A stretch of DNA of 64,000 nucleotides from assembly GCA_943736015.1 (NCBI GenBank), contig OX031059.1, positions 50,541,159 through 50,605,158 of the forward strand, in the 5' to 3' direction. The stretch is from Tridacna crocea (taxonomy: Eukaryota > Mollusca > Bivalvia > Cardiida > Cardiidae). Numbering within the stretch: position 1 is the stretch's first letter; each line of letters begins with the position of its first letter. This document shows, in pieces, positions 227-63,931 of the stretch. The notes below the pieces were generated by a model, which was not told the DNA's origin, made no database searches, and saw only the letters and a list, made by a program, of their open reading frames with translations. A program made the position numbers and the translations under genes.

Positions 227-390
227 TTAACCCTTTACTTTAATGTCCCTTTCAAAAACATTGAGGGAAAAGTAGAAAATGCTGGTAACCAGCATTTCTT
301 CTTTTTCCCACAATGTTTTTACCCTATCAAAGAAAAATTGCACCTTTTCAGCAGGTAAATGTTTAGTCAAAATTGTCATATGCCATATAG
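227..390. mobile_element. TTAA element, degraded
   Basis: TTAACCCTTTACT end and core GAAAATGCTGGTAACCAGC; right arm decayed. Confidence 0.7.
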
Positions 391-870
391 CTTGCAACAT
401 GCAAAAAGAGGAACTCGAACATTTGTGTAAAGTGTTGTCTTGGAGCAGCCTGCAGAGTTAGCGCACGTTAATCTGAAATAACACTTTCTGTTTTTATGAG
501 ATTTTCCATTTAGAGTAAGTCTACCGAAGAACCAAAACTGATGCAGACATAAAGTGCCATCTCTGATTAGCCTGCGTGGACTGCGCAGGCTGATCCAAGA
601 CGACACTGTACCCAAATCTCAGAATGCCCCTTTTCATGTGTTGCAAGCCATATCAGGGAATTTGGAATCTAATAAAAATAATTAACACAATATCACCTGT
701 AGATGACTTCTTTCTATGCAGCAGATCAGATTTGAAAACAATTGGAAAAGGAGAAATTTCTCTTTATTAGCCTCACAAAGTAAACCTTAATTCATTTTGA
801 TTTTCCATGTATTGGAAGGATAGTTAGTCAAAGATGCCTGCATCGTATTTGTTTTACTGGAGAAATGTAG

Positions 871-1099
871 TTAACCCATTACCACACAATCCCTACTTTT
901 GAAGACCCTGAGAAAGAAGCCTGTAGAAAACTTTGTGGGAAAAGGAGAAAATGCTGATAACCAGCATTTTCTCCTTTTCCCACATTGTTTTCTACCCTTC
1001 ACAAAACAAATTTCAAATGTTCAGTCACTTTTATTTTGTCATCTGCAAATGCTTTCAATTTGGACAAGCCAAAGATTTTGTTGTTTGGTAATGAGTTAA
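871..1099 (+). mobile_element. TTAA element, full length
   Basis: TTAACCCATTACCACAC to GGTAATGAGTTAA; loop reads GCTGATAACCAGC. Confidence 0.92.
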
Positions 1100-1154
1100 C
1101 TGGAGCAATGTACTTGAATGGCCATAGAATATGAAAATTATATAAATATCAACC

Positions 1155-1376
1155 TTAACAAAATGATCCCGTGTTTTCATGCCCTAAGGAAAAAGGATAT
1201 TTACAGCATTGTTTGAAAAGAAGGAAATTCTGGTTAATACTATTTTCTCTTTTACCCTCAATGTTTTGTACCCTTTCAAGGAAAAATTCCATTGTTAGAG
1301 AATCAATTATATGGTTGTCTGCAAATGCTGTCAAATTGGACAAGGTTAAAATTTTGAAGTCTGGTGAAAGAGTTAA
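1155..1376 (+). mobile_element. TTAA element, diverged
   Basis: Core decayed to TTCTGGTTAATACT; arm 2 and right TTAA recognisable. Confidence 0.7.
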
Positions 1377-1596
1377 ATGGGAGACTTTTTACATACTGAT
1401 GAATCATAATTATACATGTATCATGTTTTCCACAAAATGACAATGAGGTGCATTATTATGACATAATAAATGTTTATGATAAATAATTTTGAATGCATTT
1501 AAGACATAAATAGATGTTCTTACTTACATTGTGCAAAGCACATTGTTTCAAAGATTTAGATTTATAAAATTGCATGCATCTGTACACTAACTTCTT

Positions 1597-1832
1597 TTAA
1601 ACCTGTACCAAACAAAGACATTTTAGACTGGTACAAATTCAAAGCACTTGCAGACGTTAAAATAAACATAACTCAATTATTGAAATTTGTTTTCAGCAGG
1701 CAGCAGGATAGAAAACATTGTGGGAAAAGGAGAAAATACTGGTTACCAGCATTTTCTCCTTTTTCCACAATGTTTTCAAAAGGTTTCTATCTAAGGGTTG
1801 TAAAAACCAGGGATTGTTTGGTAAAGGGTTAA
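1597..1832 (-). mobile_element. TTAA element, full length
   Basis: Left end TTAAACCTGTACCAAAC; right GGTAAAGGGTTAA; core AATACTGGTTACCAGC. Confidence 0.88.
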
Positions 1833-2724
1833 GCAGCCACACAAAAAGTTCATTACTGCTGAAGGCTCAGTACAGTTCAAATGATTTTAAACTGATTGGG
1901 GAAACTTTTCTCTGGTTGTTATAGACAGGCTGGCTGTTTAATAGAGAGGTTTGACTAAAGAGGTTTGACCATATTTTGAAGAGATCAAAGTACTAGCAGT
2001 TTTAAAATCTGAAAATGCTTCTTAACAATCAGAACATATTAGAGTATTCAAACAGATGACTAGTAATAAATGAAGTATTCAAATAGATGAATAGTAATAA
2101 ATGGAATGATATTTATTATAGTCACAGGAAAAAAACAAACCTGACTGTGACAAACTGATGCAGTTGAGGTGGCATGCGCTTAGACATAGTTTTTGTTTGC
2201 ACCTCCAAATTGGATCCATCTCAAGAATACAGTTTGATGGGCTTCTTAAGTACTTCACCAAAGTCCATGTTATAAGTTCTCATGTGACTTTATTCATTTG
2301 TATGATTCATTTTAATACTCACAACATGGGTTTAGATAAGAGCTAAAAGTAACATGAATGAAACCATGCATGTTTTTAAAAGCATGTTGCATGGGTTGTG
2401 GTTGACTTGTAAAACAATTAAGTCTTTACTGAAGAAAAAAAAATTTGGACTTGTCCTAATTCAAAGATGCTGCAGAAGATAAATCAAATGTTGCAATTAT
2501 GATAGAATTTGTATCAGAAAAGATAGAAAACGTTTTTGGAAGAGCTAGTATATAATGATTGTAACCTGAGCAATGTTTTCAACAGTCTTTCACTGTAGGA
2601 TTATTACAACACAGAAAAAGACATGTCATTTTTTGTTGTTTTTGCAAATAGTTTGGATTAAGATCATAATACACTAAGTATTCTGTCTGATCTTGGATAT
2701 ACACTATTATTTGAAAAATATTCC

Positions 2725-2953
2725 TTAACCCATTTCCACACAATCCCTACTTTTGGCGCCCCTGAGAAAGAAGCCTCTAGAAAACATTGTGGGAAAAGGA
2801 GAAAATGCTGGTAACCAGCATTTTCTCCTTTCCCCACAATGTTTTCTACCCTTCACAAAACAAATTTCAAATTTTCAGTCACTTTTATTTTGTCGTCTGC
2901 AAATGCTTTCAATTTGGACAAGCCTAAAATATTGTCGTTTGGTAATGGGTTAA
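2725..2953 (+). mobile_element. TTAA element, full length
   Basis: Intact stem; right TTAA shared with the element at 2950. Confidence 0.93.
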
Positions 2954-3177
2954 CCCTTTATCCCATAAGGCATTTCTGAGGTATCTCTAATTGACTCTAA
3001 ATAACAGCAAGGATGAAACCGTTCTTATGTGTATGTAACACCTTTCAATAGCATAGAAAACATTGTGGCAAAAGGTGAAATTGCTCGTCACGAGCAATTT
3101 CACCTTTTGCCACAGTGTTTTCCAAAGGCTACTACAGGGAATGTGTAGAAATGAGTATCTATGGAGTAAAGGGTTAA
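2950..3177 (-). mobile_element. TTAA element, subfamily B
   Basis: Core GCTCGTCACGAGC; arms GGTATCTCTAATTGACTC and GAGTATCTATGGAG. Confidence 0.92.
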
Positions 3178-3494
3178 ATGGCTTTGACTACACTGGAAAT
3201 GTTCACATCATGTACTTAAGGCTTATTGGTGCATGTAAATGATGGGTACAGGTAGGTTGAAATCTTTTTGTATAATTATGTTCTACAAACAATAGAATTT
3301 ATTGAATGTTTTGTTGTGAAAATTCAATTGTAATTTTTTAAACAATATATTCTAGTATGAAACATTAATTCCTTTTTTTTTTAAAGTAATTTGCTAATGG
3401 TTGTTTCAGGAGGAATGTATTTGAATGAAAAAAAGAGATAGCAAAAAAGTAATGATTAAATCAGTTCCAGCCATTTAGCAAACCAAAGATAATA

Positions 3495-4839
3495 CAGTGG
3501 AGCTCCGTTATAACGCCGTCGGTGGGAGCCATGGTCGTCAACAGCGTTATATCCGGGGTTACGTTTATAACGCTGATTCCCCCCCCACACACACACACAC
3601 ACACACACTACCCGCAGCCCATCCGCCAATCATTGCCAGACTACAGAACTATGGCTTATTAATTACAGTTTATCGCAAATTTATTCTGACAAAAATGAAA
3701 TAGCAATGTTCCAAATACTAAAACTAAGACATGCCTATTTACGTTTAAACATTATTTAAAGGACATTGAACAATTTAGATTCTTTTCTATGTAACGCCTG
3801 AACTATTCCCAGTTAGTTTCTGTCATCAAATAACGTTACAACTACGTAAAAGAGCTTATTTTACCTTTAGGACCGTTTCTTTTAGAATTATTCAGCCGCT
3901 GTTTTACTAAATTACTGCAAGATTCATTCCAAAATTAAATCAAACGGTATCGTTTTGGATTGCAGACGGTGCCACCGCCATGTTTTTTTAATCATGCTGA
4001 CGATTGCATAACGAACCCTAATCGGCAATGACGAAAGAAATCTCTTTCATAATCAAACGAGATAAGACCCCCGTACATGTTGAAAGTCACAGGGGAATTT
4101 AACCTACTATCCGTAAAGAAATCACATCAGTCGTTTATCCACACAATATTTGAAGTAAAGTTTGCATTAGTGGTTCATGTATGACGTAACACACCAATAA
4201 TGCAAAGCGAAAGGGTTGTAAGTGCAAGTGTTTGTCGTACACACTTAAACCGTTTCGCCTGAAAAATTTACACCTGGCTATGGGCTGACCTACATTCAAA
4301 ACTATGCAATCACGCAATAAGCCAGTATCTCTGTTGCTTTATATTTTCTGATACAACCCTTCTGCGTATCGTAATGATAATTGCAAGAGTACCCCAGTCG
4401 TGTCACGTGCACGTTGTGTAGTCGGTAGAAAGAGAGTCATTCGGCTATTTTCTGATATCGCCGTTACGATCTACATACAGACAGACATATTGACGTAAAG
4501 TTTGTATAATGCAAGATTGTTTGCAAAGACAATTATGGGACGAGGGCCTTTTGTTACCTACTGTGCGTGTATTTGTCAAAGTAATTGTGCAAAGCCATAG
4601 GTGATAAATGTAATCAACAAGGTAAAAGTGTGAAAAATTGTCACGTTATGTGTACGGTATCGATTTTTTTTTTGACCGAGAGGTCTTTTTTTTTTTACAT
4701 TGAAGATTCTTGTGAGAGCAACGGTGGATTCGGATCAGACTCGAAAATGGTCAACCCCCGAAATTTTGGGAGCCAAAGGACACCCGCATTATAACGGAAT
4801 CAGCGCTATAGCGCACTTCGTTGTAATGGGGTTCCACTG
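3495..4839. mobile_element. pogo/Tigger-like non-autonomous DNA transposon
   Basis: The ends are inverted: CAGTGGAGCTCCGTTATAACG at the left (first 20 shared in part) against CGTTGTAATGGGGTTCCACTG at the right, flanked on both sides by TA. CAGTGG-type ends with TA duplication are typical of the pogo/Tigger branch of Tc1/mariner. The 1345-bp interior is less AT-rich than its surroundings, contains a C8-(AC)n tract at 3581-3608 and has no ORF above 69 codons, so the element is non-autonomous. Confidence 0.75.
3581..3608. repeat. Poly-C plus (AC)n microsatellite
   Basis: Eight C followed by about ten AC repeats, inside the pogo-like element. Confidence 0.95.
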
Positions 4840-5001
4840 TATCTGTCAGTAAACAAATCCCACTTTTTGTAATTATAAGATTGTTAAGATATTAAGATTA
4901 CATGTATCTATCAAAACTCTATGTTAGATCTATGATCAGGCTCCATGTTTTGTATTGTCTGATCCTAATTTACATCATCCATAAAGGCACATCATGTTGC
5001 C

Positions 5002-5229
5002 TTAACTCTTTAACAAATTATTCCAGGTTTTCACGACTCTGGAGTGAGAGGCCTTTTGAAAACATTGTGGAATAAAGAAAAAATGCTGGTAATCAGAATT
5101 GTTTTCCTTTTTTCCACAATGTTTTGTACCCCTCACAGAGACAAGTTTCTGTTCATGAGTCAAGTTTAGTCGGCTATGATTGCTTTCAATTTGAACAGGT
5201 CTAAAATTTTGTTGTTTGGTAAAGGGTAT
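5002..5229 (+). mobile_element. TTAA element, right end decayed
   Basis: Left TTAACTCTTTA; right end GGTAAAGGGTATGA has lost the TTAA. Confidence 0.85.
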
Positions 5230-5439
5230 GATAAATGTTTTGTCAGAGTAAACAACTGCATCATATCTAAGCTTCAGCAGGACATAGTTGACATTTTTAT
5301 GATTCAGTGTACACTTACTAACATTTAGATTATTGCATTTTCAACCTTACACCTTATACTTTATAAAACATTTACAACTCATAAAGATACAACCCTTTCT
5401 TCCATTTGATCTTTTATTTGATATACAGCTACAACAATC

Positions 5440-5667
5440 TTAACTCTTTACAAAATGACAATTTTTTTATTGGACCAAATTGAAAATATTTGCAGACGAC
5501 AAAATAAATGTGACTGAAAAATTGGTATTTTGTTTGCGAAGGGTAGAAAACATTGTGGATAAAGGAGAAAATGCTGGTTACCAGCATTTTCTTCTTTTCC
5601 CACAATGTTTTCATAAGCTGTCTTTCTCAGGGTCATCAAAAGTCGGAAATGTGTGGTAAAGGGTTGA
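5440..5667 (-). mobile_element. TTAA element
   Basis: Left TTAACTCTTTAC; right GGTAAAGGGTTGA. Confidence 0.9.
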
Positions 5668-8241: not shown

Positions 8242-8246
<5 letters not shown>

Positions 8247-8512: not shown

Positions 8513-8556
8513 CAATACAATTGGCTGTCAAATAAAAGTAGTGCCTAATGCAAGTT

Positions 8557-8754
8557 TGAATGTAGATGTACAACTAACCCATACCCCAAGAATCAGGGGA
8601 AGAAATACATAGAGGATATTTGTCTTTTTCGATGAAAGATCGAAATTTATTTCATCGAGTGGACACCATCGGTAATATTTTCATGAGTGGCACAGCCACG
8701 AGTGAAAATATTACCGTTGGTGTTCACCAGATGAAAAAAAACAAATATTCTATT
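8557..8754. repeat. Tandem foldback unit 1
   Basis: First of two adjacent copies, both beginning TGAATGTAGATGTACAAC. It contains GGTAATATTTTCATGAGTGG inverted against CACGAGTGAAAATATTACC. Compared with unit 2 it lacks about 20 bp of the right outer arm (AAATTTCGATCTTT). Confidence 0.9.
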
Positions 8755-8974
8755 TGAATGTAGATGTACAACGAACCCATACCCCAAGAATCAGGGGAAG
8801 AAATACATAGAGGATATTTGTCTTTTCCTATGAAAGATCGAAATTTATTTCATCGAGTGGACACCATCGGTAATATTTTCATGAGTGGCACAGCCACGAG
8901 TAAAAATATTACCGTTGGTGTTCACGAGATGAAATAAATTTCGATCTTTAACTGAAAAGAACAAATATTCTATT
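8755..8974. repeat. Tandem foldback unit 2 with 57-bp arms
   Basis: Second copy, nearly identical over about 190 bp. The palindrome 8833-8949 starts AAAGATCGAAATTTATTTCA and ends with its complement, meeting at GGCACAGCC; each arm is about 57 bp with few mismatches. Confidence 0.9.
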
Positions 8975-10282: not shown

Positions 10283-10480
10283 GGGCCGGTATTCACCAAC
10301 CATTCTTGAGAATATTCTTAGTCTTATTTTCCAAGGTTTTCCAAATTCGTAAGTAACACAACTTCTGATTGGCTAAACCGAATGGTTTAGCCAGTCAGAA
10401 GTTGTGTTACTTACAAATTTAGAAAATTCTGGAGAATAAGACTAAGAATATTCTCAAGAATGGTTGGTGAATACGGGCCC
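10283..10480. mobile_element. Palindromic MITE, TATTCACC family
   Basis: The arms GGGCC(C)GTATTCACCAACC and TTCTTGAGAATATTCTTAGT recur inverted at the right; the centre is GGCTAAACCGAATGGTTTAGCC. The 198-bp element is almost wholly self-complementary. No clear target duplication is visible. It ends 15 nt before the exon at 10496. Confidence 0.85.
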
Positions 10481-13842: not shown

Positions 13843-13868
13843 GGTAAGATATCTCCTTATCAGATATT

Positions 13869-13917
13869 GTAGACCAAGATCAGACTGCACAGAAGGTGCA
13901 GTCTGATCTTGATCTAC
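13869..13917. repeat. 50-bp stem-loop, TCAGACTGCAC family
   Basis: GTAGACCAAGATCAGACTGC inverted as GCAGTCTGATCTTGATCTAC around a short loop ACAGAAGGT. Nearly perfect 20-bp arms. Confidence 0.85.
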
Positions 13918-14147
13918 ATTGGCTATAAAACATCATTTTGTCAAGCTTAGCAGATGAAGGGTCAATCTTGAAAGAAATGTACATCAGACAGATCTGAAGA
14001 TTTTTTTTATAGATAAGGGAAATAATTAATTTTGAGTAAAATTCTGGCAAATGAAAAATTAATTGTTATGGGTATTTCTTCTTTTTCCGCAAAATTTTGA
14101 AATTGGTTTGCTGCAACACACAAAAAGCTATTTATTAGTAGTAATAA

Positions 14148-14865: not shown

Positions 14866-15095
14866 TTAACCCTTTACTCCATAGATACTCATTTTGACGT
14901 ATTAACAACAGACAGCTTTTGAAAACATTATGGGAAAAGGAGAAATTGCTCGTAACAAGCAATTTCTCCTTTTCCCACAATGTTTTCCACTCAATCAGAT
15001 ATTTGTATCCTCATTTGTCCATATTTTTGACATCATATCTTTATTAGCTTCTGAAATGGAAGAGCCTCAAATTGGCATATTAGGTAAAGGGTTAA
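14866..15095 (+). mobile_element. TTAA element, B-type core with GGGAAAAGG stem
   Basis: B-type end CCATAGATACTC and core GCTCGTAACAAGC but A-type stem GGGAAAAGGAG: intermediate between subfamilies. Confidence 0.88.
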
Positions 15096-18470: not shown

Positions 18471-18701
18471 TTTACCCTTTACCAAACGGCTAAATGTAAC
18501 ACTTGTCCAAATTGAAAGCATTTTCAGACGACAACCTCAATGTGGTTCAGATGGAGAAAATTGTCTAAGAATGGGTAGAAAACATTTTGGGAAAAGGAGA
18601 AAATGCTGGTAACCAGCATTTTCTCCTTTTCCCAAAAATGTTTTCAATAGGCTTTGCATTTTAGGGTCATTAAAACTCAGAATTGTGTGGTAAAGGGTTA
18701 A
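18471..18701 (-). mobile_element. TTAA element with paired stem change
   Basis: CATTTTGGG (18583) pairs with CCCAAAAATG (18631); right GGTAAAGGGTTAA. Confidence 0.9.
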
Positions 18702-20922: not shown

Positions 20923-21151
20923 TTAACCCATTACCACACAATCCCTACTTTTGACGCCCCTGAGAAGGAAGTCTTTTGAAAACACTGTGGGAAAAGGAGA
21001 AAATGCTGGTAACCAGCATTTTCTCCTTTTCCCACAGTGTTTTCTACCCTTCCCAGAACAAATTTTAATTTTTCATTTACCTTTATTCTGTCGTGTGCAA
21101 ATGCTTTCAATTTGAACCAGTCTAAAATTTTGTCGTGTGGTAAAGAGTTAA
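20923..21151 (+). mobile_element. TTAA element with paired CACTG/CAGTG stem
   Basis: AACACTGTGGG pairs with CCCACAGTGTT. Confidence 0.93.
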
Positions 21152-28149: not shown

Positions 28150-29060
28150 TTTCTGAATGGTTTATTAGTGTCTCTTCACTTATAAATTATAATAGAGTTC
28201 AATTTGTTCTTGAACCAAACAATCTTTGCAAGTTTCAACATAATTGGATGAACACTGTGAACTTCATTGCCTAAGCATGAAATGGAAATTTTAAACTTTA
28301 AATGGCTACTTTTCCAACACTGATTGTCAGTTGTTTTGTTTTTGTTTTAAAAAATTAATTGGGTTCAAGCTGTTTTAGATACAAAGTAATTGCGCAAGCT
28401 CAATGAAAATCCGGCCCCAAATGCTGACTTCATTGCATTAACAAGAAATGGAAATTTTCAACATTAACTGGCTGCTTTTCACATACTGATTGTCTTTTTT
28501 TTCAAAATAGATAAGGTTTAAGCTGTTGATAATACAAAACAACTGTGTAAGTTTCATGAAAATCTTACCTCAAATGCTGACTTCCATCGCATAAACTGAA
28601 GAAATGGAGATTTTCATCAGCAAAACGTTACTTTTCCAATACTGTTTTTTTCAAATTCAACAGGGTTCAAGCTATTTATGAGATTAACAAATTGCAAGTT
28701 TTACAAATATCTGATAACAAATGCAGACTTTATTGCATTAACAAGAAATGGAAATTTTCAGCTTAAAACGGCTACTTTTCCCATATTGTTGGTTGATTTT
28801 TTTTTTTTTTTTCAAAATCAATAGGCTGAAGCTTTTGATAAGATAAAGAAACTGTAAGTTTCACTGAAATCTGACCACAGATGTAGATTTTGTGGCATAA
28901 ACAAGAAATAGAAATTTCAAACTTGAAATGGCTACTTTTCCCATAGAATATGTTGGAATTTTGTCATAATCGATAGGCTTCAAGCCATTGATGAGATAAA
29001 CAAACTGTGTAAGTTTCACGAAAATCTGATGAGAAATGCAGATTTTATCACGTAAACCAA
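28150..29060. repeat. Tandem array, about 155-bp units (five to six)
   Basis: The landmark GAAATGGAAATTTTCAAC recurs at about 28279, 28445, 28601, 28744 and 28902, accompanied by GGCTACTTTTCC, TTCAAGC and AACTGTGTAAGTTTCA. Units are strongly diverged. The array is followed by a GACA/GACGG-rich stretch (29070-29115), as in the hairpin-ended elements. Confidence 0.75.
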
Positions 29061-41666: not shown

Positions 41667-41912
41667 CTCCCTATTCACCAATCAATCGAAAGAATATTCT
41701 TAGTCATATTTGTCAGATTCTCTTTCTAACTTTGAACATAAGAAAACACCTGATTAGCTAAACCATTTATAAATGTGAAAGTAACACAACTCTTGATTGG
41801 CTAAACCATTTTGGTTTAGCCAATCAGGTGTTGTGTTACTTTCAAATATAGAAAATTATAAAGAACAAGACAAAGAACATTTTCAGGAATGGTTGGTGAA
41901 TATACAGACCCA
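41667..41912. mobile_element. TATTCACC-family MITE with partial internal duplication
   Basis: Outer arms TATTCACCAATCAATC and AATGGTTGGTGAATATAC. The left arm contains a repeated GATTGGCTAAACCATTT-like segment, making it about 50 bp longer than the other copies. Confidence 0.8.
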
Positions 41913-42562: not shown

Positions 42563-42740
42563 ACATTGAATTTAAAAAAGGTCTTGGTTTAAAAATCAGG
42601 ATTCTGATCTGTATCTAGTGGTGTTTGCAAATAATCAGGTTTACAGTACCTCTATTTGCTATAATGACTGACAGAGCATTTATAAGCATTTGTATGTAAA
42701 GATCAACTTCAAGTGTTTCATAGGACAATATAGATGGAGA

Positions 42741-42770
42741 TCAGACAGCACAAAACATGCTGTCTGATCA
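42741..42770. repeat. Stem-loop, TCAGACTGCAC family
   Basis: TCAGACAGCA inverted as TGCTGTCTGA around CAAAACA; the AGAC-AGC change is matched in both arms. Confidence 0.7.
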
Positions 42771-42850: not shown

Positions 42851-43076
42851 TTAACTCTTTACCAAACAACAAAATTTTAGACTGGTCCAAATTGAAAGCA
42901 CTTGCAGACAACAAAATAAACGTAATTCAAACATTGAACTTTGTTTCCAGCAGGGAGGAAAACGTGGGAAAAGAAGAAAATGCTGGTTACCATGATTTTC
43001 CCCTTTTCCCACAATGTTTTTAAAAGGCTCCTATCTCAGGGTCGTAAAAACCAGAGATTGTTTGGTAAAGGGTTAA
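42851..43076 (-). mobile_element. TTAA element, full length
   Basis: TTAACTCTTTACCAAAC to GGTAAAGGGTTAA; right stem CATGATTTTCC. Confidence 0.92.
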
Positions 43077-44097: not shown

Positions 44098-44286
44098 CCT
44101 GTATTCACCAACCATTCTTGAGAGCATTCTTAATCTCCAACATTTTCTATATTTGTAAGTAACATAACTTCTGATTGGCTAAACCGAATGGTTTAGCCAA
44201 TCAGAAGTTGTGTTACTTTCAAATATAGAAAATTATGGAGAATAGGACAAAGACTGTTCTAAAGAATGGTTGGTGAATACGAGCCC
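44098..44286. mobile_element. TATTCACC-family MITE in probable ROCK 3' UTR
   Basis: Near-perfect palindrome centred on GGCTAAACCGAATGGTTTAGCC, starting about 120 nt after the ROCK stop (minus strand). If transcribed it would fold into a stem of about 90 bp. Confidence 0.88.
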
Positions 44287-46853: not shown

Positions 46854-46901
46854 GATCCAAAATCAGACTGTATATCATTATACAGTCTGATCTTCATCTA
46901 C
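46854..46901. repeat. Stem-loop, TCAGACTGCAC family
   Basis: ATCAGACTGTATA inverted as TATACAGTCTGAT, ending CTTCATCTAC. The inner arm differs from the 13869 copy (GTATA for GCAC) on both sides. Confidence 0.8.
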
Positions 46902-49525: not shown

Positions 49526-49724
49526 GGGTCTGTATTCACCAACCGTTCTTAAGAACATTCTTTGTCTTATTCTTCAAGATTTTCTAACAGTGAAAGTAAC
49601 AGAACTTCTGACTGGCTAAACCAAATGGTTTAGCCAATCAGAAGTTCTGTTACTTTCACACTGACAAAATTCTGAAGAATAAGACTATGAATGTTTTTAA
49701 GAATGGTTGGTGAATACGTACCCT
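49526..49724. mobile_element. TATTCACC-family MITE
   Basis: Ends GGTCTGTATTCACCAACCG and GGTTGGTGAATACGTACCC; centre GGCTAAACCAAATGGTTTAGCC; inner arms AGTAACAGAACTTCTGA and its complement. Confidence 0.88.
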
Positions 49725-50345: not shown

Positions 50346-50459
50346 GTCAGATGGCAGGGGACTTGGAAACTTGTTCACGGCTGTGGTGAATCATGTAAGG
50401 GAGGGCCACATGATTCACCATAGCCATGAACAAGTTTCAAAGTCCCCTGCCATCTGACC
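50346..50459. repeat. Foldback with 51-bp arms
   Basis: GTCAGATGGCAGGGGACTTG is inverted at the right end and GTGAATCATGT meets ACATGATTCAC around AAGGGAGGGCC. Only a few mismatches in 51 bp. It is not related to the other palindromic families and is single-copy here. Confidence 0.9.
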
Positions 50460-52890: not shown

Positions 52891-54724
52891 ACAAGAGGAC
52901 CATGATGGTCCTATATCGCTCACCTGAGTACTAAGCAGCAAAGGTCTACAACAAAGACTATAATTACCAAATACTGAGGTTCAAGGGCTAATGATGATGA
53001 AAAAAGAGCGGCAAATTGTCGAAAGATATGCAATCCCACCACCAGTTGTATAGGAGGTATAATAGTTGCAAAGGGCTGGCAATGCAACAGACAATTTAAC
53101 TTGAGACTTCAAAATTCCACTCTGGACAAGCAAACAATACTATTAAAATAAAGATCAAAGTGGAATTTCTCAAAATCCACCCTAGGTAGAGTTATTGTTC
53201 TTGAACCGAGTACTCAGTAATATCACAACAAACATGCATACCAATTTTGAATTCGTTCCGACTTGAGATGACAAAGTTATATTCCAAACAAGCATTCAAT
53301 GCAGACTCATGTGAGATTTTATTGAGAAAAACATTCTAACCAATTTTCAATTCAGCTTAGCAAGAAATGTGGTCTCAAGAGTGCTCACAAGAACACTTTT
53401 AAACATTTCCCTCTTTATCTCTATGTGAAATCTGAGACCAACAACATAGGGCTAACTTTCACACCAGGACCATAATTTGAAGTATTTTAGTAGAGGGCCA
53501 CTAGATGATGCTACATGCCAAATATGAAAGCTCTAGCCCTTATGGTTTGGGAGAAGAAGATTTTCTAAGATTTCCTCCTTTATTGCGATGTGAAATCCGG
53601 GAACCTACAACATAGGGCCATAATTCGAGGTATGTTGATAGAAAGCCACTAGATGATGCTATATGCCAAATATGAAAGCTCTAGCCCTTATGGTTTGGGA
53701 GAAGAAGATTTTCTAAGATTTCCTTCTTTATCGCTATGTGAAATCCGGGAACCTACAACATACGGCCATAATTTGAGGTATGTTGATAGAAAGCCACTAG
53801 ATGATGCTATATGCCAAATATGAAAGCTCTGGCCATTACGGTTTGGTGCAAGAAAATTTTCTAAGATTTCCTTCTTTATCGCTATGTGAAATCCGAGACC
53901 CACAACATAGGGCAAATTCTTTACATCAGGGACATAATTTGACGAAAATTAGTAGAGGGCTACTAGATGATGCTACATGCCAAATATGAAAGCTCTGGCC
54001 TTTACCATGTGCAAATCCAAGACCAACAACATAGGTTTAATTTCACACCAGGGCCTTAATTTGAAGTATTTTGGTAGAGGGTCACTAGATGATGCTGCAT
54101 GCCAAATATGAAAGCTCTAGCCCTTATGGTTTGGGACAAGAACATTTTCTGAGATTTCCTTCTTTATTTCTTTGTGAAATCCGAGACCCCACAACATAGG
54201 ACCAATTTCCACACTAAGGTGATAATTTGAAGTATTTCAGTAGAGGGCCACTAGATGATGCTACATGCAAATTATGAGAGCTCTAACCCTTACGGTTTGG
54301 GAGAAGGAGATTTTCTAATATTTCCTTCTTTATCTCTATGTGAAATCTGAGAACCCACAGCATAGGGCCAATTTCAAGACTAGAGCCACAATTTGAAGTA
54401 TTTTGGTAGAGGGCCATTAGATGATGCTACATGCCAAATATGAAAGCTCTAGCCCTTACAGTTTTTGACGAGAAGATTTTTAAAGTTTTTTCACTCTGTT
54501 GCCATAGCAACCAGAGTTCTACATGGAATTCAAATCTTTGAAGTATTTTGAAAGTGCATCATCTAGGGATCATTTCTGTGAAGTTTGTCTGAAATCTGAT
54601 TGTTAGTTTAGGAGGAGAAGATTTTTTTGTAATTGTGAACGGACGGACAGACAGACGGACGAACGACGGACATTGATCGATCACAATAGCTCACCTTGAG
54701 CACTTCGTGCTCAGGTGAGCTAAA
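52891..54724 (+). mobile_element. Hairpin-ended element with 166-bp tandem core, complete copy
   Basis: Left end ACAAGAGGACCATGATGGTCC and CTCACCTGAGT; unique stretch to about 53440; about seven tandem units marked by ATGAAAGCTCTAGCCCTTA (starts 53523, 53671, 53819, 53985, 54107, 54273, 54439); a GTTGCCATAGCAACC palindrome; a GGACGGACAGAC-rich segment; hairpin 54689-54720 (GCTCACC...GGTGAGC) then TAAAAA. The plan resembles bivalve 'pearl' elements and Helitron/Helentron-related non-autonomous elements; that link is inference. Confidence 0.75.
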
Positions 54725-56432
54725 AATTAAGGGAGCAGGAGTTATGATTCCTGTGCACTGCACTCCCCCTTGATGAGATCTATCCACCCATGAAATTTCA
54801 TAACCCTAGCTAGTATAGTTAAAGATTTCCTTCTTTATCTCTATGTGAAATCCGAGAACCCACAACATAGGGCTATTTTCAACACTAGGGCCATAATTTG
54901 AAGTATTTTGGTAGAGGGCCACTAGATGATGCTACATGCCAAATATGAAAGCTCTAGCCCTTACGGTTTGGGACAAGAAGATTTTTGAAGATTTCCTTCT
55001 TTATCTCTATGTGAAATCCGAGAACCCACAACATAGGGCCAATTTCCATACTAGGGCCATTATTTGAAGTATTTTAATAGGGGGCCACTAGATGATACTA
55101 CATGCCATATATGAGAGCTCTAGCCTTTATGGTTTGGGACAAGAAGATTTTTAAAGATTTCCTTCTTTATCTCTATGTGAAATCCAAGAACCCACAACAT
55201 AGGGCCATTTTCAACACTAGGGCCATAATTTGAAGTATTTTGGTAGAGGGCCACTAGATGATGCTGCATGCCAAATATGAAAGCTCTACCCCTTAACCCA
55301 TTACCACATGACAATATTTTAGACTGGTCCAAATTGAAAGCATTTGCAGATGACAAAATAAAGGTGACTGAAATTTTGAAATTTGTTCTGGGAAGGGTAG
55401 AAAACACTGTGGGAAAAGGAGAAAATGCTGGTTACCAGCATTTTCTCCTTTTCCCACAGTGTTTTCAAAAGGCTTCTTTCTCAGGGGCGTCAAAAGTAGG
55501 GATTGTGTGGTAATGGGTTAAGGTTTGGGACATAAAGTTTTTTACAGATTTCCTTCTTTATCTCTATGTGGAATCGGAGAACCCACAACATAGGGCCAAT
55601 TTCCACACTAGGGCCATTATTTGAAGTATTTTGGTAGAGGGCCACTAGATGATACTACATGCCATATATGAGAGCTCTAGCCTTTATGGTTTGGGACAAG
55701 AAGATTTTTAAAGATTTCCTTCTTTATCTCTATGTGAAATCCGAGAACCCACAACATAGGGCCATTTTCAAACTAGGGCCATAATTTGAAGTATTTTGGT
55801 AGAGGGTCACTAGATGATGCTACATGCCAAATATGAAAGCTCTAGCCCTTACGGTTTGGGACAAGAAGATTTTTAAAGATTTCCTTCTTTATCTCTATGT
55901 GAAATCCGAGAACCCACAACATAGGGCCAATTTCTACACTAGGGCCATTATTTGAAGTATTTTAATAGAGGGCCACTAGATGATACTACATGCCATATAT
56001 GAGAGCTCTAGCCCTTACGGTTTGGGACAAGAAAATTTTTAAAGATTTCCTTCTTTATCTCCATGTGAAATCCAAGAACCCACAACATAGGGCCATTTTC
56101 AACACTAGGGCCATAATTTGAAGTATTTTGGTAGAGGGTCACTAGATGATGCTACATGCAAAATATGAGAGCTCTAGCCCTTACGGTTTGGGACAAGAAG
56201 ATTTTTAAAGTTTTTTCTCTCGGTTGCCATGGCAACCAGAGTTCTCCATGGAATTCAAATCTTTGAAGTATTTTGAAAGTGCATCACCTAAGGATCATTT
56301 CTGTGAAGTTTCACTGAAATCTGTTGGGCGGTTTCAGAGGAGAAGAATTTTTAAGTAATTGTTCACGGACGGACGCCGGACAACGATCGATCACAATAGC
56401 TCACCCTGAGCACTATGTGCTCAGGTGAGCTA
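54725..56432 (+). mobile_element. Hairpin-ended element, second copy lacking its left end
   Basis: Directly after the first copy. Units are at 54944, 55109, 55275, 55667 (after a nested TTAA element), 55832, 55998 and 56164, spaced 165-166 bp. The tail has GTTGCCATGGCAACC, a GGACGGACG segment and hairpin 56399-56430 followed by TAAAAAA. Neighbouring units are much more alike than in the first copy, implying recent homogenisation. Confidence 0.75.
55293..55521 (-). mobile_element. TTAA element nested in the 166-bp array
   Basis: CTCTACCCC-TTAA-CCC ... GGG-TTAA-GGTTTGGG; other units read CCCTTACGGTTTGGG. Perfect CACTG/CAGTG stem. Confidence 0.95.
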
Positions 56433-58195: not shown

Positions 58196-58265
58196 AATTA
58201 CTGATACCTCCCTGACATAGTACCCGATATAATTATGACTGTTATTTTTTCTCTTTTGAGGACAA

Positions 58266-58320: not shown

Positions 58321-58436
58321 TCTACTGCTGTATTAAAGAAAGTGTTCAAATTGTCTCTTGATCTTGAAGCAAACTTGTATCTGTAGTCTTTGTAAAGTTT
58401 GAGAAAATGTAACTTATTTATTAAGTAGTGGGAGAG

Positions 58437-58660: not shown

Positions 58661-58854
58661 TATACATCCTGTGCCTTATATAGAGTCATAGAAGCCTGGT
58701 CAAACGGAAGTATTTCCCGAATTCTTGACAACTTTCTGGCATACTGAGAGACTACTAATGAAGATAAACATCCCAATTTGCTACGTGTAGCACAAGCAAA
58801 TGTGTCAGTGAGAGACATTACTGAAGTACACATGAAATGTAAGATGATACATAC

Positions 58855-58920
58855 CTTTACAATATGCTAGGAATTCTTCATTCTTGTCAAAATGATCTTT
58901 ATGCACTTTTGTGTGACAAC
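58855..58920 (-). CDS. ROCK: ROCK exon: C1 zinc finger, second part
   Basis: Acceptor TATTTACAG, donor GTATGT, phase 1 in and 1 out: R-CHTKVHKDHFDKNEEFLAYC-K. It supplies the remaining zinc ligands (C, H, H, C) with the ROCK spacing KxHKDHxDKxEE. Val replaces the non-ligand Cys of vertebrate ROCK in CHxKCHKDH. Confidence 0.92.
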
Positions 58921-58988
58921 CTGTAAATAGTGGAAACACATGCTCATGTACTAATAAAGCTGAGAAAGGAATTTCACTTCAATCTTTC

Positions 58989-59084
58989 TTAACCCTTTAC
59001 CAGCATTTTCTTCTTTTCCCATAATGTTTCAAAAGCCTCTTCCCCAAGGTTGTTAAAAGTCCAGATTGTGTGGTAAAGAGTTAA
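58989..59084 (-). mobile_element. TTAA element, 96-bp microhomology deletion form
   Basis: The terminus CCCTTTACCA runs straight into GCATTTTCTTC of the right stem; both TTAA intact. Confidence 0.9.
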
Positions 59085-59580
59085 TACCCCCAACAGCGCC
59101 TGGACAGAAACAGGCAATTTAACAAAAAAAAAAATATAAGTTCAAGGGGAGATTACCCTTGAATCATAAGGCGTAGACAATAGAAAGCTATGTCTTGCAC
59201 AACTTCAGTATATGTTCAATGCATTAGCAAACTTTTAAATACAATAGCAGTAAAACTGTAGGAGTTCGTGATACAGAATTTCTAGTATTTTGTACACAGA
59301 CACACAAATGAACACAGAGATGGACAGACAGACGGGCTGATTCCAGTATACCCCCAAAAACATTTGTCTTACGAGGTTAAATATACTAAGCAAGTCATCT
59401 AATAATGGATCCATAAAATCTAATGTTTAACAACTGGCTGAATTAGGAGGTAGAATATTACTTGGACATGCAGAAAATTTAGCCAAGAGGTTGTCAGACT
59501 TGACAAATCTAGAAATAAACTTGGAAAAGATCAGATTGCAAAAGAAATGACCTGGTATCAAATCTGCACAACTAGCTTCT

Positions 59581-59813
59581 TTAACCCTTTATCCTATAGG
59601 GCATTTCTATGGTATCTCTAATTGACCCTAAAATTAATAACAGCTAGGATGAAACCGTTTCTTATGTGTATATGACACTCTTTGATAGCACAGAAAACAT
59701 TGTGACAAAAGGTGAAATTGCTCGTCACGAGCAATTTCACTTTTGCCATAATGTTTTCTAAAGGCTTCTACAAGCCATGCGTAGAAATGAGTATCTATGG
59801 AGTAAAGGGTTAA
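59581..59813 (-). mobile_element. TTAA element, subfamily B
   Basis: Core GCTCGTCACGAGC; right TTAA shared with the next. Confidence 0.93.
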
Positions 59814-60038
59814 GCCTCTCCCAAATAATCCCTGGTTTTCAGGACCCTGACAAAAGAGGGCTATCAAACGCATTGTAGGATAAGAAGAAAATGCATGTAA
59901 CCAGCATATTCTCCTTTTCCCGCAATGTTTTCCACCCTCCGAAAACAAATTCCATTTTTTGAGTCACATTCATTTTGTCGTCTGCAAATGCTTTTAATTT
60001 GGAACAGTCCCAAATTTTGTTGTTTGGTAAAGAGTTAA
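59810..60038 (+). mobile_element. TTAA element, full length
   Basis: TTAAGCCTCTCCC to GGTAAAGAGTTAA; 115 bp from the ROCK C1 exon. Confidence 0.91.
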
Positions 60039-60153
60039 CCAGACTATCAATGGTGTGAAGTTTCAATATCTACATCTCGGGTATTCAGTGAGAACATCTA
60101 CATCAGCGAAATGAGCATAACAGGGGTTACAATAAGTGCCCATTGATACTTAC

Positions 60154-60286
60154 GTCGACACTCGAGAGCTGGGGGAGGATGTAACATATGCCACATGGAC
60201 TTGTTACAGGAATCACAGGTGGTTGGGGTACGGAAATGGAACTCTACAAATTCATGCCCTTTGTAATCTATAGAGTTACTTTTCAC
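60154..60286 (-). CDS. ROCK: ROCK exon: C1 zinc finger, first part
   Basis: Acceptor CATATTTCAG, donor GTAAGT, phase 0 in and 1 out. After VKSNSIDYK it encodes GHEFVEFHFRTPTTCDSC, then NKSMWHMLHPPPALECR. The His and first three Cys of the C1 pattern (HX12CX2C...CX2C) are present. MWHM.HPPPALECRR distinguishes ROCK from citron, MRCK and PKC C1 domains. The reading frame continues past the donor for a few codons, which is intron. Confidence 0.96.
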
Positions 60287-60359
60287 CTGAAATATGTATA
60301 AATTATGTATGAGGGGGATGCATGTAAATCCATCATTTTTTTCTTTGTATTTCACCCTC

Positions 60360-60584
60360 TTAACCCATTACCAAACAATCCCTACTTTTGACCCCCCCTG
60401 AGAAAGAAACCTTTTGAAAACACTGTGGGAAAAGGAGAAAATGCTGGTTACCAGCATTTTCTCCTTTTCCCACAATGTTTTTTGCCCCTCCCAGAACGAC
60501 TTTCAATTTTTCAGTCACCTTTGTCATCTGCAAATGCTTTCAATTTGGACTAGTCTAAAATTTTCTCATGTGGTAAAGAGTTAA
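60360..60584 (+). mobile_element. TTAA element, full length
   Basis: TTAACCCATTACC to GGTAAAGAGTTAA; 74 bp upstream of the C1 exon acceptor. Confidence 0.93.
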
Positions 60585-60659
60585 GTACTGTGAAATAGCT
60601 ATATCTGTCTGAAAAAGTGACTTTAAAAACAGCATCAAATGGTTTGAAACAGATAACGG

Positions 60660-60861
60660 TCCCTATTCACCATTCTTCAGAACTTTTTTAGTCTTATTCT
60701 CAGGAATGTTCTAAACTTAAAAGAACCACGATCTCTGAATGGCTAAAACCATAAACAACTTCTGATTGGGTATATGGTTAGCCATTCAGAAGTTGTTTTA
60801 CTTTCTAATCAAGAAAAAGACTGAAAATGGAATTCAGAATGGTTGGTGAATGTGTGCCCAG
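60660..60861. mobile_element. TATTCACC-family MITE, diverged
   Basis: Starts GGTCCCTATTCACCATTC and ends GAATGGTTGGTGAATGTG. The centre is disturbed (AACAACTTCTGATTGGGTATATGG) and the arms match less well than in other copies. Confidence 0.7.
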
Positions 60862-60889
60862 AAGGTTGAATCAAAGCTGCATTAAAAAA

Positions 60890-60924
60890 GGGGGTGGGGG
60901 GGTTGGGGGGTGGGGGTGGTGGGG
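60890..60924 (+). repeat. G-rich tract, possible G-quadruplex
   Basis: Runs of 5, 7, 6, 5 and 4 G separated by one- or two-base loops, in a ROCK intron on the strand opposite the transcript. Confidence 0.9.
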
Positions 60925-61822
60925 TCAAATTCAAATTTTCATATTCACTGAAAACACTAGACTCAGAGGTCTGAAGAGTGTGCCTTGCACATTATAATTT
61001 TTCAGTGTCTGGTTAAAAGTTGTACTCAAAGTATATTACACGTACATTACTATATCAAAAGTGAAGAAGGAGTTTGTTATAGAAAATTTGATATATTATT
61101 AGTATGTACATGTCCTTGTCAGACAGGCTGATTCCAATTTATACATGAGAAAAATCAAGGGTGTAAAATTCTTTCTCTGTCTATTTGTCCTGTAGGATGA
61201 GTGGGTAGAAAAAAGTTACATGTCCTTATGACACTATCACTTGTCCCAACTTGCCGGCTTGAGTGACTATTTCTATTGCACATACTACAGTGTAGATATA
61301 AGCAAAGTAGACAGTGTTTAATTCTAATTTTTTTCCGGTGGCTTGACTGGCAACCCTGTTCCGATCTAACATTATAGGAATTGCAGCACAGATCATACAG
61401 CTATACTAGTATAACCAACAATGTGAAGAGAAAACATGTCAAGCACTTTACAGATGTGCATGCATAATAAACATAAACATCCTGTTCATGATAGAAGAGA
61501 CGCTCTGGAATTTCAGTTTTACTTTTGTTTTGTGATAGTGAAATAACCTTTACTTTGAATTTTACTTAACAAATGAAGAATTCAATTGTTATAAAATGCA
61601 CTCGTCCGACAGTATGAGCTTGGCATTTTTTCCACTTACCCAAGCCAAATGTTATTTGTCAATATGAGCAGACTAGTGGAATTTTACACCCCTAATAATG
61701 TTGGTGGAGATATAATGGAACTGTGCATTGCAGAGAGTAATTATCAATTTCAGATTATTATGTTGTAAATAGTCATAAGTAGCAATAGATGATGATATCA
61801 AACACTTCAACATCACACTTAC

Positions 61823-61888
61823 TGGATTATTTAACTCGACAGACGTTTCTAATGATTTGCGATTTTCACCTTCAGTAGCATACAGCAC
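61823..61888 (-). CDS. ROCK: ROCK exon: PH to C1 linker
   Basis: Acceptor TATGTTGCAG, donor GTAAGT, 22 codons in phase 0/0: VLYATEGENRKSLETSVELN then NP. The start (FQ-VLYATEGE) matches the ROCK PH strand (FQ.LYA.EGE); the remainder is the variable linker before C1. Confidence 0.9.
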
Positions 61889-62044
61889 CTGCAACATAGT
61901 TAAAAATCAATGAATTTATCACAGAATATAAATAAATTTATCACAAAATCAATGAATTTATCAATGAACTTATCACAGATAACATGTCTGACATGCCAAG
62001 GTGCAAGAAACAAAGCTTGTTAAAGTTAGAAATATGGACTGCTA

Positions 62045-62135
62045 TTAATCCTTTACCAGACGACAAAATTTAAGCTTTGCCCAAATTGAAAGCATTTGCA
62101 GACGACAATTTCAATGTGGCTCAAATGCTGCAGTC

Positions 62136-62169
<34 letters not shown>

Positions 62170-62262
62170 TGTGGGAAATGGAGAAAATGCTGGTTACCAG
62201 CATTTTCTCCTTTTCCCACAATGTTTTCAAAAGTCATGAAAAGTCTGCTCTGTGCAGGGTGA
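62045..62262 (-). mobile_element. TTAA element with poly-A insertion
   Basis: About 23 A (62144-62166) replace the AGAAAACA segment of the left stem; right arm truncated. Confidence 0.88.
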
Positions 62263-62438
62263 ACTCTTTACCAAACCGCATAAATATAAACATGGTAGAA
62301 CTGAAAGCATTTGCAGAAGACAAAATAAATGTTGCTCAATTAATGCTGTTTACCCTTTTTAGGGTGGAAAATATTGTGTTTTCTAAAAGCCTCCTCATCA
62401 CGGTCTTTAAAATTCAGGATTGTGTGGTAAAGGGTTTA
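62260..62438 (-). mobile_element. TTAA element without hairpin core
   Basis: GGTGGAAAATATTGTG joins TTTTCTAAAAGCC; TGAA left, GGTAAAGGGTTTA right. Confidence 0.83.
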
Positions 62439-62658
62439 GTGAGTATCTTCACTTTAAGGTAAATCCTATGTACAACAGCTAATATTGATGTTACAAACAA
62501 AAACAGAACAGATTACCCAACAAATTGGGATTTCTTTATATTTTACAGGTAGTTGATAACATCAAACAAGACAATTTTTAAGATAATTCTTCAGTAATTC
62601 TTCAGACAGAAATACAATTCATGGCAAAAAGGTTTAAAGATACAGGAAAGCTGTTTAC

Positions 62659-62737
62659 CTGAAATATTCTAGGAATATCTTTAACATCAGCCCTGTACAC
62701 ATCTCCTTGTGTGACTGAACGTACATGGTACAGTTTT
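62659..62737 (-). CDS. ROCK: ROCK exon: PH domain
   Basis: Acceptor TTGATTTCAG, donor GTAAAC, one base completing the previous codon then 26 codons, phase 0 out: KLYHVRSVTQGDVYRADVKD then IPRIFQ. HVR.VTQ.DVYRAD..EIPRIFQ is strongly conserved in ROCK proteins. Confidence 0.93.
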
Positions 62738-62802
62738 CTGAAATCAAACACAACTCAGTCTACATTTCCTAGTTTACTGGTATTTTTGCTAGTAAGTCTC
62801 TC

Positions 62803-63031
62803 TTAACTCTTTACCAAACGAAAATATTTTATTCTGGTCCAAACTGAAAGCATTTGCAGATGACAAAATCAGAGTTGCTGAAAAACTGAATTTATGTTTG
62901 GGAAGGCTGGTAAACATTGCGGGAAAAGGAGAAAATGCTGGTTACCAGCATTTTCTCCTTTTCCAACAATGTTTTCAAAAGGCTTCTTTGTAAGGATCAT
63001 TAAAAGTCAGGATTGTGTGGTAAATAGTTAA
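62803..63031 (-). mobile_element. TTAA element, full length
   Basis: TTAACTCTTTACC to GGTAAATAGTTAA; 65 bp upstream of a ROCK exon acceptor. Confidence 0.93.
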
Positions 63032-63146
63032 ATGTTTTGAACTTCTGTTTCTTTCAATACATGACTCAATCTAACGACAATATTCTAAGTTTAAAACAGA
63101 TTAAAGTCTTTAAGAAAAATCACCTACCACTTCAGTTCTACGATAT

Positions 63147-63290
63147 TTAACCCTTTACCAATCAATCCCTGGTTTTTATGAACTTGAGATAGAAGCCTTT
63201 AAAAAACATTGTGCGCAAAGGAGAAAATGCTGGTAATCAGCATTTTCTCCTTTGCGCACAATGTTTTCTATCCTGCTAAATGCAGATTCA
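63147..63290 (+). mobile_element. TTAA element with doubly paired stem changes, right-truncated
   Basis: GTGCGCAAAGG (63211) pairs with CCTTTGCGCAC (63249); two compensating differences from the consensus. Confidence 0.9.
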
Positions 63291-63310
63291 AACTTATGTA
63301 GAACCTTCAC

Positions 63311-63370
63311 AAGAAAGAAACCAGGATAAGCTGAACAATATTATCAATCCACTGGTGAAGTCAAAATCCC
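63311..63370. repeat. Direct repeat between MITEs, left copy
   Basis: GGATAAGCTGAACAATATTA and CAATCCACTGGTGAAGTC match 63651-63706; the TTAA element 63387-63615 lies between the two copies. Confidence 0.8.
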
Positions 63371-63386
63371 TTTTGCCAGAGCATCA

Positions 63387-63615
63387 TTAACCCTTTACCA
63401 AACAACAAATTTTTAGACTGGTCACAATGGGAATCACTTGCAGACGAAAAAATAAACTCATCTCAAAAATTGAAATTTGTTTCCAGCAGGGTAGAAAACA
63501 TTGTTGGAAAAGGAGAAAATGCTGGTAACCAGCATTTTCTCCTTTTCCCACAATGTTTTCAAAGGGCTTATAATTCAGGGTCATAAAAACCAGGGATTGT
63601 TTGTTAAAGGGTTAA
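63387..63615 (-). mobile_element. TTAA element, full length
   Basis: TTAACCCTTTACCAAAC to GTTAAAGGGTTAA, between direct repeats. Confidence 0.93.
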
Positions 63616-63650
63616 TAGATGCTTTACCCTAATGCTGATTCTAACTTTCA

Positions 63651-63706
63651 TTAGGAAGAAACAAGGATAAGCTGAACAGTATTATAAATCCACTTGGGGA
63701 AGTTAA
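63651..63706. repeat. Direct repeat between MITEs, right copy
   Basis: GGATAAGCTGAACAGTATTA and AAATCCACTTGGGGAAG, ending at the TTAA where the element 63703-63931 begins. Confidence 0.8.
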
Positions 63707-63931
63707 GTCATAACCAAACAACAATATTTTAGGCTTGTCAAAATTGAAAGCATATGCAGACGACAAATAAAAGTGACTGAAAATGTGAAATTTGTTTTGT
63801 GAAGAGTAGAAAACGGTGTAGGAAAAGGAGAAAATGCTGGTTACCAGCATTTTCTCCTTTTCCCTTAGTGTTTTCTATAGGCTTCTTTCTCAGGGTCAAC
63901 AAAAGTAGGGATTGTATGGTAATTGGATTAA
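63703..63931 (-). mobile_element. TTAA element beside a ROCK splice donor
   Basis: TTAAGTCATAACC to GGTAATTGGATTAA; ends 12 nt from the donor GTAAGT (63943-63948). Confidence 0.92.

Follow-up and report, generated by a model that had tools for sequence, protein, structure and literature searches.

Extent of the element field

The stretch analysed here, referred to below as the window, comprises 64 kb of the Tridacna crocea genome (contig C4, positions 50541159-50605158) in an assembly of 1,048,827,098 bases and 31 contigs. It is crowded with copies of a miniature inverted-repeat transposable element (MITE) that is bounded by TTAA and carries a palindrome in its centre; the main family is named family 1. 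An nhmmer profile built on 116 full copies gave 112 merged intervals covering 34.0% of the 64 kb, in agreement with the original prediction of about 110 copies filling about a third of the window. The same profile gave 0 matches on the window DNA read backwards. Blastn with five example copies gave 109 merged intervals (20,080 bp, spanning 248-63,931), and 62 two-ended elements were found in the window, the first beginning at 227. An Rfam scan of the window returned 0 matches.

227-63931, both strands: whole field of family 1 MITE copies (nhmmer profile and blastn intervals)

The 13-base end TTAACCCTTTACC or its complement occurs exactly 133,483 times in the whole genome (66,849 + 66,634), against 48 times (20 + 28) for the pattern read backwards, and the abundance is therefore not due to chance. 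The consensus hairpin, searched as an exact 65-mer, was found 29,375 times, and its backwards control 0 times. In 20 comparison stretches of 10 kb each, taken at round coordinates on ten contigs, the family covered 17.3% of the DNA (standard error 3.6%, range 0-59%) with 163 hairpin copies. Extrapolation gives about 855,000 hairpin copies in the genome, with a sampling error of about one fifth. At 34%, the window exceeds 17 of the 20 comparison stretches, yet lies within their range. The original prediction expected many copies from a genome-wide consensus search, and the end counts bear this out; they rule out local amplification of a family confined to this locus.

Structure of family 1 and its relatives F2 and F3

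The family 1 consensus is 229 bp long, with TTAA at each end and CCCTTTACC ends adjoining the TTAA. It starts with TTAACCCTTTACCACAC, finishes with GGTAAAGGGTTAA and has the terminal motif CCCTTTACCA on both sides. The central palindrome has two 33-nt arms and 1 central nt, together 67 nt, at consensus positions 56-122. Column numbers below count from 0, so that the hairpin occupies columns 55-121 and its centre is column 88. As a single strand of DNA the palindrome folds into one full-length hairpin (-37.2 kcal/mol), and none of 200 shuffled sequences folded as well. The family had been described as palindromic, which does not hold for the element as a whole: in a self-comparison, the only long self-complementary stretches were the terminal 13 bp and the 67 nt of the centre, and the sides between ends and hairpin had no complementarity.

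Among 165 two-ended elements from the window and 28 other loci, 112 were 220-239 bp long and thus too short for a transposase gene. Short and uniform length, very many copies and the lack of a transposase gene make this element a MITE.

2725-2953, + strand: family 1 example, 229 bp from TTAA to TTAA, hairpin 2778-2848; its right TTAA is common to the next element
2950-3177, - strand: F2 full copy, with ends and hairpin position as in family 1 and other flanks
871-1099, + strand: family 1 full copy, 229 bp
55293-55521, - strand: family 1 full copy with an inherited paired change (ACACTG / CAGTGT)
20923-21151, + strand: family 1 full copy with the inherited paired change ACACTG / CAGTGT and a perfect hairpin at 20978-21044

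Where the original prediction had one family, family 1 does make up the 112 intervals, and at least two further families, F2 and F3, are also present. They have ends and hairpin in common with family 1, and hardly anything of the flanks. Five two-ended copies of F2 and one of F3 lie in the window. F2 is 229 bp and F3 230 bp long (one copy used), both with the hairpin at offset 55 as in family 1. Iteration of the F2 profile drifted to family 1, and a 14-copy consensus was retained for F2. The family 1 and F2 hairpins are 85% identical and differ by four changes that are matched on both arms. Alignment of their right flanks scored 17 (shuffles 18.1 ± 6.9) and of their left flanks 20 (maximum 19 among 200 shuffles), so the internal region is conserved more than the rest. 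Elsewhere in the sample, at L016:3851-3975, family 1 left and right ends stand about 25 bp apart with no hairpin between them, an apparent internal deletion.

TTAA target sites and nested insertions

Exact TTAA was present at both ends of 119 of the 165 two-ended elements, TTAA being part of the search pattern. An empty-site search with 121 queries gave 355 spanning matches; 25 of the alignments, belonging to 3 queries, were inspected. In three nested insertions the flanks, once joined, can be aligned over one TTAA to copies without an interruption, with identities of about 71-83%; one TTAA left at the empty site is what is expected of piggyBac insertion. Four pairs of two-ended window elements each have one TTAA in common.

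14866-15095, + strand: F3 copy inside the TTAA of another copy
42851-43076, - strand: copy inside the TTAA of another MITE; flanks rejoin across one TTAA at 75-77% identity
38872-39092, - strand: copy inside the TTAA of another MITE; alignments at 72-83% identity
24082-24528, - strand: two family 1 elements, head to tail, with one TTAA in common
59581-60038, no strand assigned: F2 (59581-59813) and family 1 (59810-60038) with one TTAA in common

Terminal sequences and piggyBac transposases of the genome

piggyBac elements are described as marked by a CCYT motif at their termini, within inverted repeats about 12-19 bp long (PMC2872659). Family 1 shows this motif as CCCT on both sides, within 13-bp terminal inverted repeats, and by its ends and target site it is classed as a piggyBac MITE.

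The piggyBac transposase domain PF13843 gave 118 matches in the genome. Flanking sequence was read for 18 loci, which fall into 15 groups; both element ends were recovered at 7 loci and a single end at 3, and at the other 8 the stretch read showed no end. The recovered ends were CCCTTTATATAC, CCCTTTCAGTGC, or CCCTAGTCATGC/CCCTTGTCATGC. Comparison of two copies gave sharp ends TTAACCCTTTATATAC for one piggyBac family and TTAACCCTAGTCATGC / TTAACCCTTGTCATGC for another, and further loci had the ends of the first family, of the second, or TTAACCCTTTCAGTGC. Complete piggyBac elements with the ends TTAACCCTTT/TTAACCCT are present. The MITE and the piggyBac family with TTAACCCTTTATATAC ends have CCCTTTA in common. 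In a search for lone ends of a longer parent, 24 of 406 end matches had no nearby hairpin, and none of them was shown to be a parent.

Many partial or stop-bearing transposase matches are clustered at C8:56710862-56757774 and C13:4481437-4612957. Open-frame piggyBac pairs were found at C10:28376412 and C18:30428954, at C15:28712879 and C3:59405428, and at C1:8963161 and C4:57378802. Their flanks within the element are 98-100% identical, so piggyBac probably moved recently in this genome.

Divergence of hairpin and flanks

Divergence was measured in 106 copies picked by their ends alone. From the consensus, the arms diverge by 5.2% and 6.0% and the flanks by 17.1% and 17.4%, and the minimum of sliding-window divergence falls on the hairpin. 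After columns with a minor base above 12% were removed, divergence was 4.8% in the hairpin and 10.8% in the flanks, and the hairpin was the lower in 89 of the 106 copies. By this threshold 42 of the 134 flank columns are variable, against 3 of the 66 arm columns; columns 62 and 114, which make up two of those three, are partners. Between copies, the hairpin/flank divergence ratio was 0.33-0.43 across all pair distances and 0.33 in the 30 closest pairs. Average-linkage clustering failed to resolve subfamilies. Mixture classes of the flanks (3 to 5 classes) all had one hairpin consensus; the Bayesian information criterion did not support more than one class, and the classes served only for this comparison.

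For counts of mismatches and for simulations, 68 of 306 hairpin rows were left out as duplicates or as covering fewer than 56 of the 67 columns. Twenty of the 238 distinct hairpins were perfect, and the mean was 4.1 mismatched pairs of 33. Most copies therefore lack the near-perfect hairpin that had been claimed for so many. Arm correction strong enough to keep every hairpin perfect is rejected by the same count and by the small overall excess of paired changes.

The centre base (column 88) varies more than any other hairpin site: it is altered in 31% of copies, whereas the figure to either side of it is 6%. In the orientation of the flanks it is A in 173 copies, T in 44, G in 25, C in 7 and a gap in 14 (n = 263), and changes in all directions are raised, A to T being just one of them. 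The A-to-T changes are private and show no clustering in the flank tree, as would fit a fast-mutating loop.

Inherited and private changes in the hairpin

For each variant, sharing between neighbouring copies was measured, with neighbours chosen on a held-out half of the flank columns. At frequencies of 4-8%, paired hairpin variants were shared at 0.27-0.36 (base 0.057), flank variants at 0.13-0.16 (base 0.055-0.059) and unpaired hairpin variants at 0.09-0.11 (base 0.062). The order was unchanged at 8-20%.

Three held-out trees, each from 60% of the flank columns, were used with variants of 8-20 carriers. Held-out trees were needed because flank variants had also built an earlier tree, in which 66 of 144 were clustered. 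Clustered flank variants numbered 10 of 56, 16 of 60 and 14 of 59, clustered unpaired hairpin variants 1 of 20, 0 of 20 and 0 of 20, and paired variants clustered in 2 of 2 cases each time. Clustering by mean distance (unpaired 0 of 48 at P<0.05, flank 18 of 273) was too weak and was superseded by neighbour sharing and the trees. Common changes of the hairpin that are carried through transposition are thus paired; column 109 of F2 is the one exception seen.

Arm copying in single resident copies

Matched changes on the two arms also occur in single copies of the window and of the sample.

63147-63305, + strand: partial copy with a two-base change on both arms (GTGCGCAAAGG / CCTTTGCGCAC), hairpin 63203-63267
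18471-18701, - strand: copy whose alignment shows T64/A112 on both arms; an additional base in one arm places it outside the 180 exact 65-mers counted below

The GCGC two-base change of the first copy was searched as an exact 22-base arm and occurs 17 times genome-wide, 2 times in the window copy 63203-63267 and 15 times alone, which makes this copy the sole place in the genome with the exact variant on both arms. Another two-base change, GGTG, is present on both arms of a sampled copy at locus L015; the GGTG arm occurs 156 times genome-wide, and among the 100 matches listed it was on both arms in the L015 copy only.

Arm changes at the partner columns 64/112 and 66/110 were counted as exact 65-mers in the whole genome. 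T64 was found on one arm in 564 hairpins (A-centre orientation; nine of them form one tandem array), and T64/A112 on both arms in 180, which is 16.6 times the 10.8 expected if the arms changed independently. A110 was found on one arm in 1,035 hairpins and T66/A110 on both arms in 269, 7.4 times the 36.5 expected. In these expectations the counts of right-arm A112 and left-arm T66 were assumed equal to the measured count of the opposite arm. The non-partner control, T64 with A110, gave 22 hairpins against 19.9 expected, both single counts being measured, so differences in copy age hardly inflate the expectation. In otherwise perfect hairpins, 13.8% of the T64 and 11.5% of the T66 lesions were on both arms. 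An equal number of lesions may have been erased by arm copying, beyond the reach of these counts.

Whether these paired changes are inherited can be read from the flanks. Twenty of the 180 paired-64 copies and 20 of the 269 paired-66 copies, taken from the places listed, were set in a flank-only tree of 246 tips; 4 of 20 copies with a mixed 64T state had too little flank and were left out of the trees. The paired-64 and paired-66 sets need 19 changes each on this tree (shuffled 19.4 and 19.5), and the inherited paired change 62/114 needs 5 changes for 20 carriers (shuffled 19.5). On an earlier flank tree the paired-64 set needed 18 changes against 19.5 shuffled (P 0.08). Most of the fetched paired-64 and paired-66 copies thus have separate origins. 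Small groups are possible among the copies beyond these 20 each. Recurrent matched arm changes above independence in unrelated copies, by which quasi-palindrome correction is recognised, are hence present at two sites.

In the sample, paired changes were more numerous than simulated where hairpins had no more than 3 mismatches (7 against 1.4 and 15 against 5.0), numbered 14 against 11.5 at 4-6 mismatches, and fell to 10 against 14.6 at 7 or more; a few of them were probably inherited among F2 copies. Such a fading of the excess with hairpin decay is expected if the arms must still pair. At seven diagnostic pairs lie 103 of the 148 joint arm changes of the sample. That all covariation is subfamily structure was considered and was overturned by the genome-wide paired counts and the scattered paired copies.

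The original prediction held the hairpin to be unlike that of a MITE decaying at random. Its copies do decay at scattered sites; the lower divergence of the arms, the pairing of common inherited changes and the copying of one arm from the other within single copies uphold the claim in part.

Proposed origin of the hairpin pattern

We consider it probable that family 1 is an abundant piggyBac-class MITE whose hairpin is shaped by arm copying in resident copies together with constraint along the transposing lineages. Family 1 and its relatives F2 and F3 would be moved in trans, by some piggyBac transposase, to TTAA sites. After insertion an element otherwise decays at scattered sites, and in residents with near-perfect hairpins one arm is now and then copied onto the other, as the counts at two sites show. 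This copying probably proceeds by template switching or by hairpin-templated repair, from which the matched changes may stem; it puts a mutation on both arms or may erase it. In the transposing lineages, to judge from the pattern of inherited changes, an intact hairpin probably favours copying of the element, and may do so by aiding transposition. Unbiased arm copying alone would not slow the divergence of lineages, which suggests that the hairpin sequence is under some constraint as well.

In a stronger form of this proposal, which we regard as possible and somewhat doubtful, the repair template is part of the element itself: transposition would require or strongly favour an intact hairpin, and arm copying would keep resetting near-perfect hairpins. 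The part important for spread would then be error-corrected within each copy, and selection with self-correction would help to explain how one MITE family came to make up about 17% of a 1.05-Gb genome.

Several points weigh against the proposal. No parent with CCCTTTACC ends was found among the ends recovered from the 18 of 118 transposase matches that were read. The piggyBac type of the original prediction thus stands on the TTAA target, the CCCT ends and the presence of transposase genes, and lacks a parental transposase with the same ends among the ends recovered; the parent would be extinct, lie among the unread matches, or be replaced by a cross-mobilising relative. Even among the closest pairs the hairpin/flank divergence ratio is about 0.35, and a reduced mutation rate in the hairpin could give this too. 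Below 4% frequency, unpaired hairpin variants are shared between neighbours at 0.044-0.052 (base 0.020), like flank variants at 0.045-0.050 (base 0.023-0.026), and the contrast of hairpin and flank arises only above this frequency. Just two paired variants had carriers enough for the tree test. One inherited change is unpaired: column 109 is C in 9 of 18 and T in 9 of 18 F2 copies. Arm copying was counted at two sites only and fails to preserve old hairpins. Over the sample as a whole, the excess of non-diagnostic paired changes is modest (46 against 29.8 ± 5.1 simulated), and some of these changes, such as 85T in F2 copies, are probably inherited. Some template-switch models predict inversion of the loop, of which the changes of the centre base show no clear sign.

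The change at column 109 of F2 leaves a G-U pair on one strand, which is relevant if an RNA hairpin is under selection.

For the constraint on the hairpin two rivals are live. According to the first, a dimeric protein, either the transposase or a host factor, binds the palindrome as a symmetric site, and the half-sites change together when that protein changes, while pairing itself is irrelevant. It accounts for constraint on sequence as well as on pairing, as seen in the variable columns (42 of 134 in flanks, 3 of 66 in arms), and for the four matched changes that separate family 1 and F2; it leaves unexplained the paired changes that recur, scattered, in single resident copies. We hold this account to be possible, and clearly less probable than the one proposed.

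The second is a lower mutation rate of the hairpin, or conversion between copies that homogenises hairpins, without selection at transposition. Since unpaired hairpin variants of higher frequency show less inheritance than comparably frequent flank variants, and the loop centre is the most variable site of the hairpin, we think this unlikely, even though the divergence ratio is of the same order (0.33-0.43) at all distances and in the 30 closest pairs, and variants below 4% are shared alike in hairpin and flank.

That family 1 is an ordinary piggyBac MITE, with a hairpin that is a founder feature decaying at random and with paired changes that mark a few subfamilies with perfect founders, is improbable. 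The diagnostic pairs, which hold most of the joint changes, and the clades formed by paired 62/114 agree with it, as does the near independence of the remaining changes between arms overall. It is opposed by the 16.6- and 7.4-fold excess of paired 64 and 66 with the non-partner control at chance, by the failure of the 20 paired-64 and 20 paired-66 copies to form clades, and by the scarcity of common variants in arm columns relative to flanks.

An origin from Kolobok, another superfamily whose elements are reported likewise to duplicate TTAA and to form MITEs, is very improbable and was rejected on the ends, which are given as AG/AGGRR in Kolobok (PMC6004289) and are CCCT on both sides in this MITE, like those of local complete piggyBac elements; no search for Kolobok transposases was made.

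Other repeats

A different palindromic family, whose arms contain CTGATTGG or close variants and are unlike the TTAA MITE hairpin, lies at 10320-10443, 41776-41844, 44142-44233, 49590-49659 and 60753-60798. A further repeat forms short hairpins with ATCAGAC arms (13868-13918, 42739-42769 and 46862-46891). At 50346-50458 lies a palindrome that has 5 mismatches in arms of 53 nt and differs in appearance from the other window hairpins. Tandem arrays with a unit of mostly about 166 bp occupy 53466-56214, and the full MITE copy at 55293-55521 stands between two of them. Tandem repeats also occur at 8555-8938 and 28418-28945, with units of 198 bp (1.9 copies) and 144-160 bp respectively.

Parts of the MITE are regularly spaced at some places of the genome: at 178 in C3:9374424-9375912, where 9 hairpins have the same single change, at about 245 in C1:1621403-1621906 and at 39 in C1:381101-381191. 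At locus L011 six MITE hairpins are spaced about 1.67 kb apart.

Comparison with known systems

The abundance of the family is itself noteworthy. A literature search of titles and abstract openings, with most subscription journals and all repeat databases outside its reach, found neither a description of this MITE family, which may already have a name, nor an account of arm copying in MITE hairpins. MITEs of the piggyBac class generally have TTAA targets, CCYT ends, no coding capacity and many copies. To this the present family adds a long internal palindrome, paired inherited changes and arm copying.

The self-complementary short elements of the Foldback or Angel type have been proposed to amplify via folded single strands. 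They are self-complementary from the ends inward, whereas the palindrome described here is central and the flanks are not complementary. The mPing MITE of rice is of the PIF/Harbinger class, unlike the present element. Internal sequences of mPing raise or lower its transposition, so that in both cases internal MITE sequence would matter for movement; the available text of that report mentions no hairpin (PMC9921582).

A close likeness is with the CMITEs, piggyBac-type MITEs of Acropora corals of about 100 bp and about 1,600 copies (PMC2872659). According to the available text they have the TTAA duplication, CCCT-type ends and tandem arrays, their internal region is conserved over the ends between families, and most families have no closely matching autonomous element (PMC2872659). 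Between family 1 and F2 the internal region is similarly the better conserved part. The main text on CMITEs has no hairpin, palindrome, secondary structure or stem (PMC2872659), whereas the present family is 229 bp long with a 67-nt palindrome and about 855,000 hairpin copies by extrapolation. The authors of the CMITE study suggest that the internal region acts in transposition (PMC2872659). This old remark on MITE internal regions of unclear role is here made testable: as the common inherited hairpin changes are paired, unpaired hairpins should move poorly.

Copying of one arm of an imperfect inverted repeat onto the other is described as quasi-palindrome template switching, in cases from yeast reporters, RNA genes and yeast genes (PMC3820800, PMC8794818, PMC8604942). 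How often this happens in a genome of animal size is difficult to determine, since palindromes are mostly single loci. In contrast to those cases, a single genome here contains one repeated palindrome with perfect copies in the tens of thousands (29,375 exact matches) and far more near-exact ones, and the flanks record the history of each copy. Counts of partner, non-partner and single changes measure arm copying site by site with a built-in control, and the family thus offers a natural test bed for how DNA handles its own mirror-image sequences.

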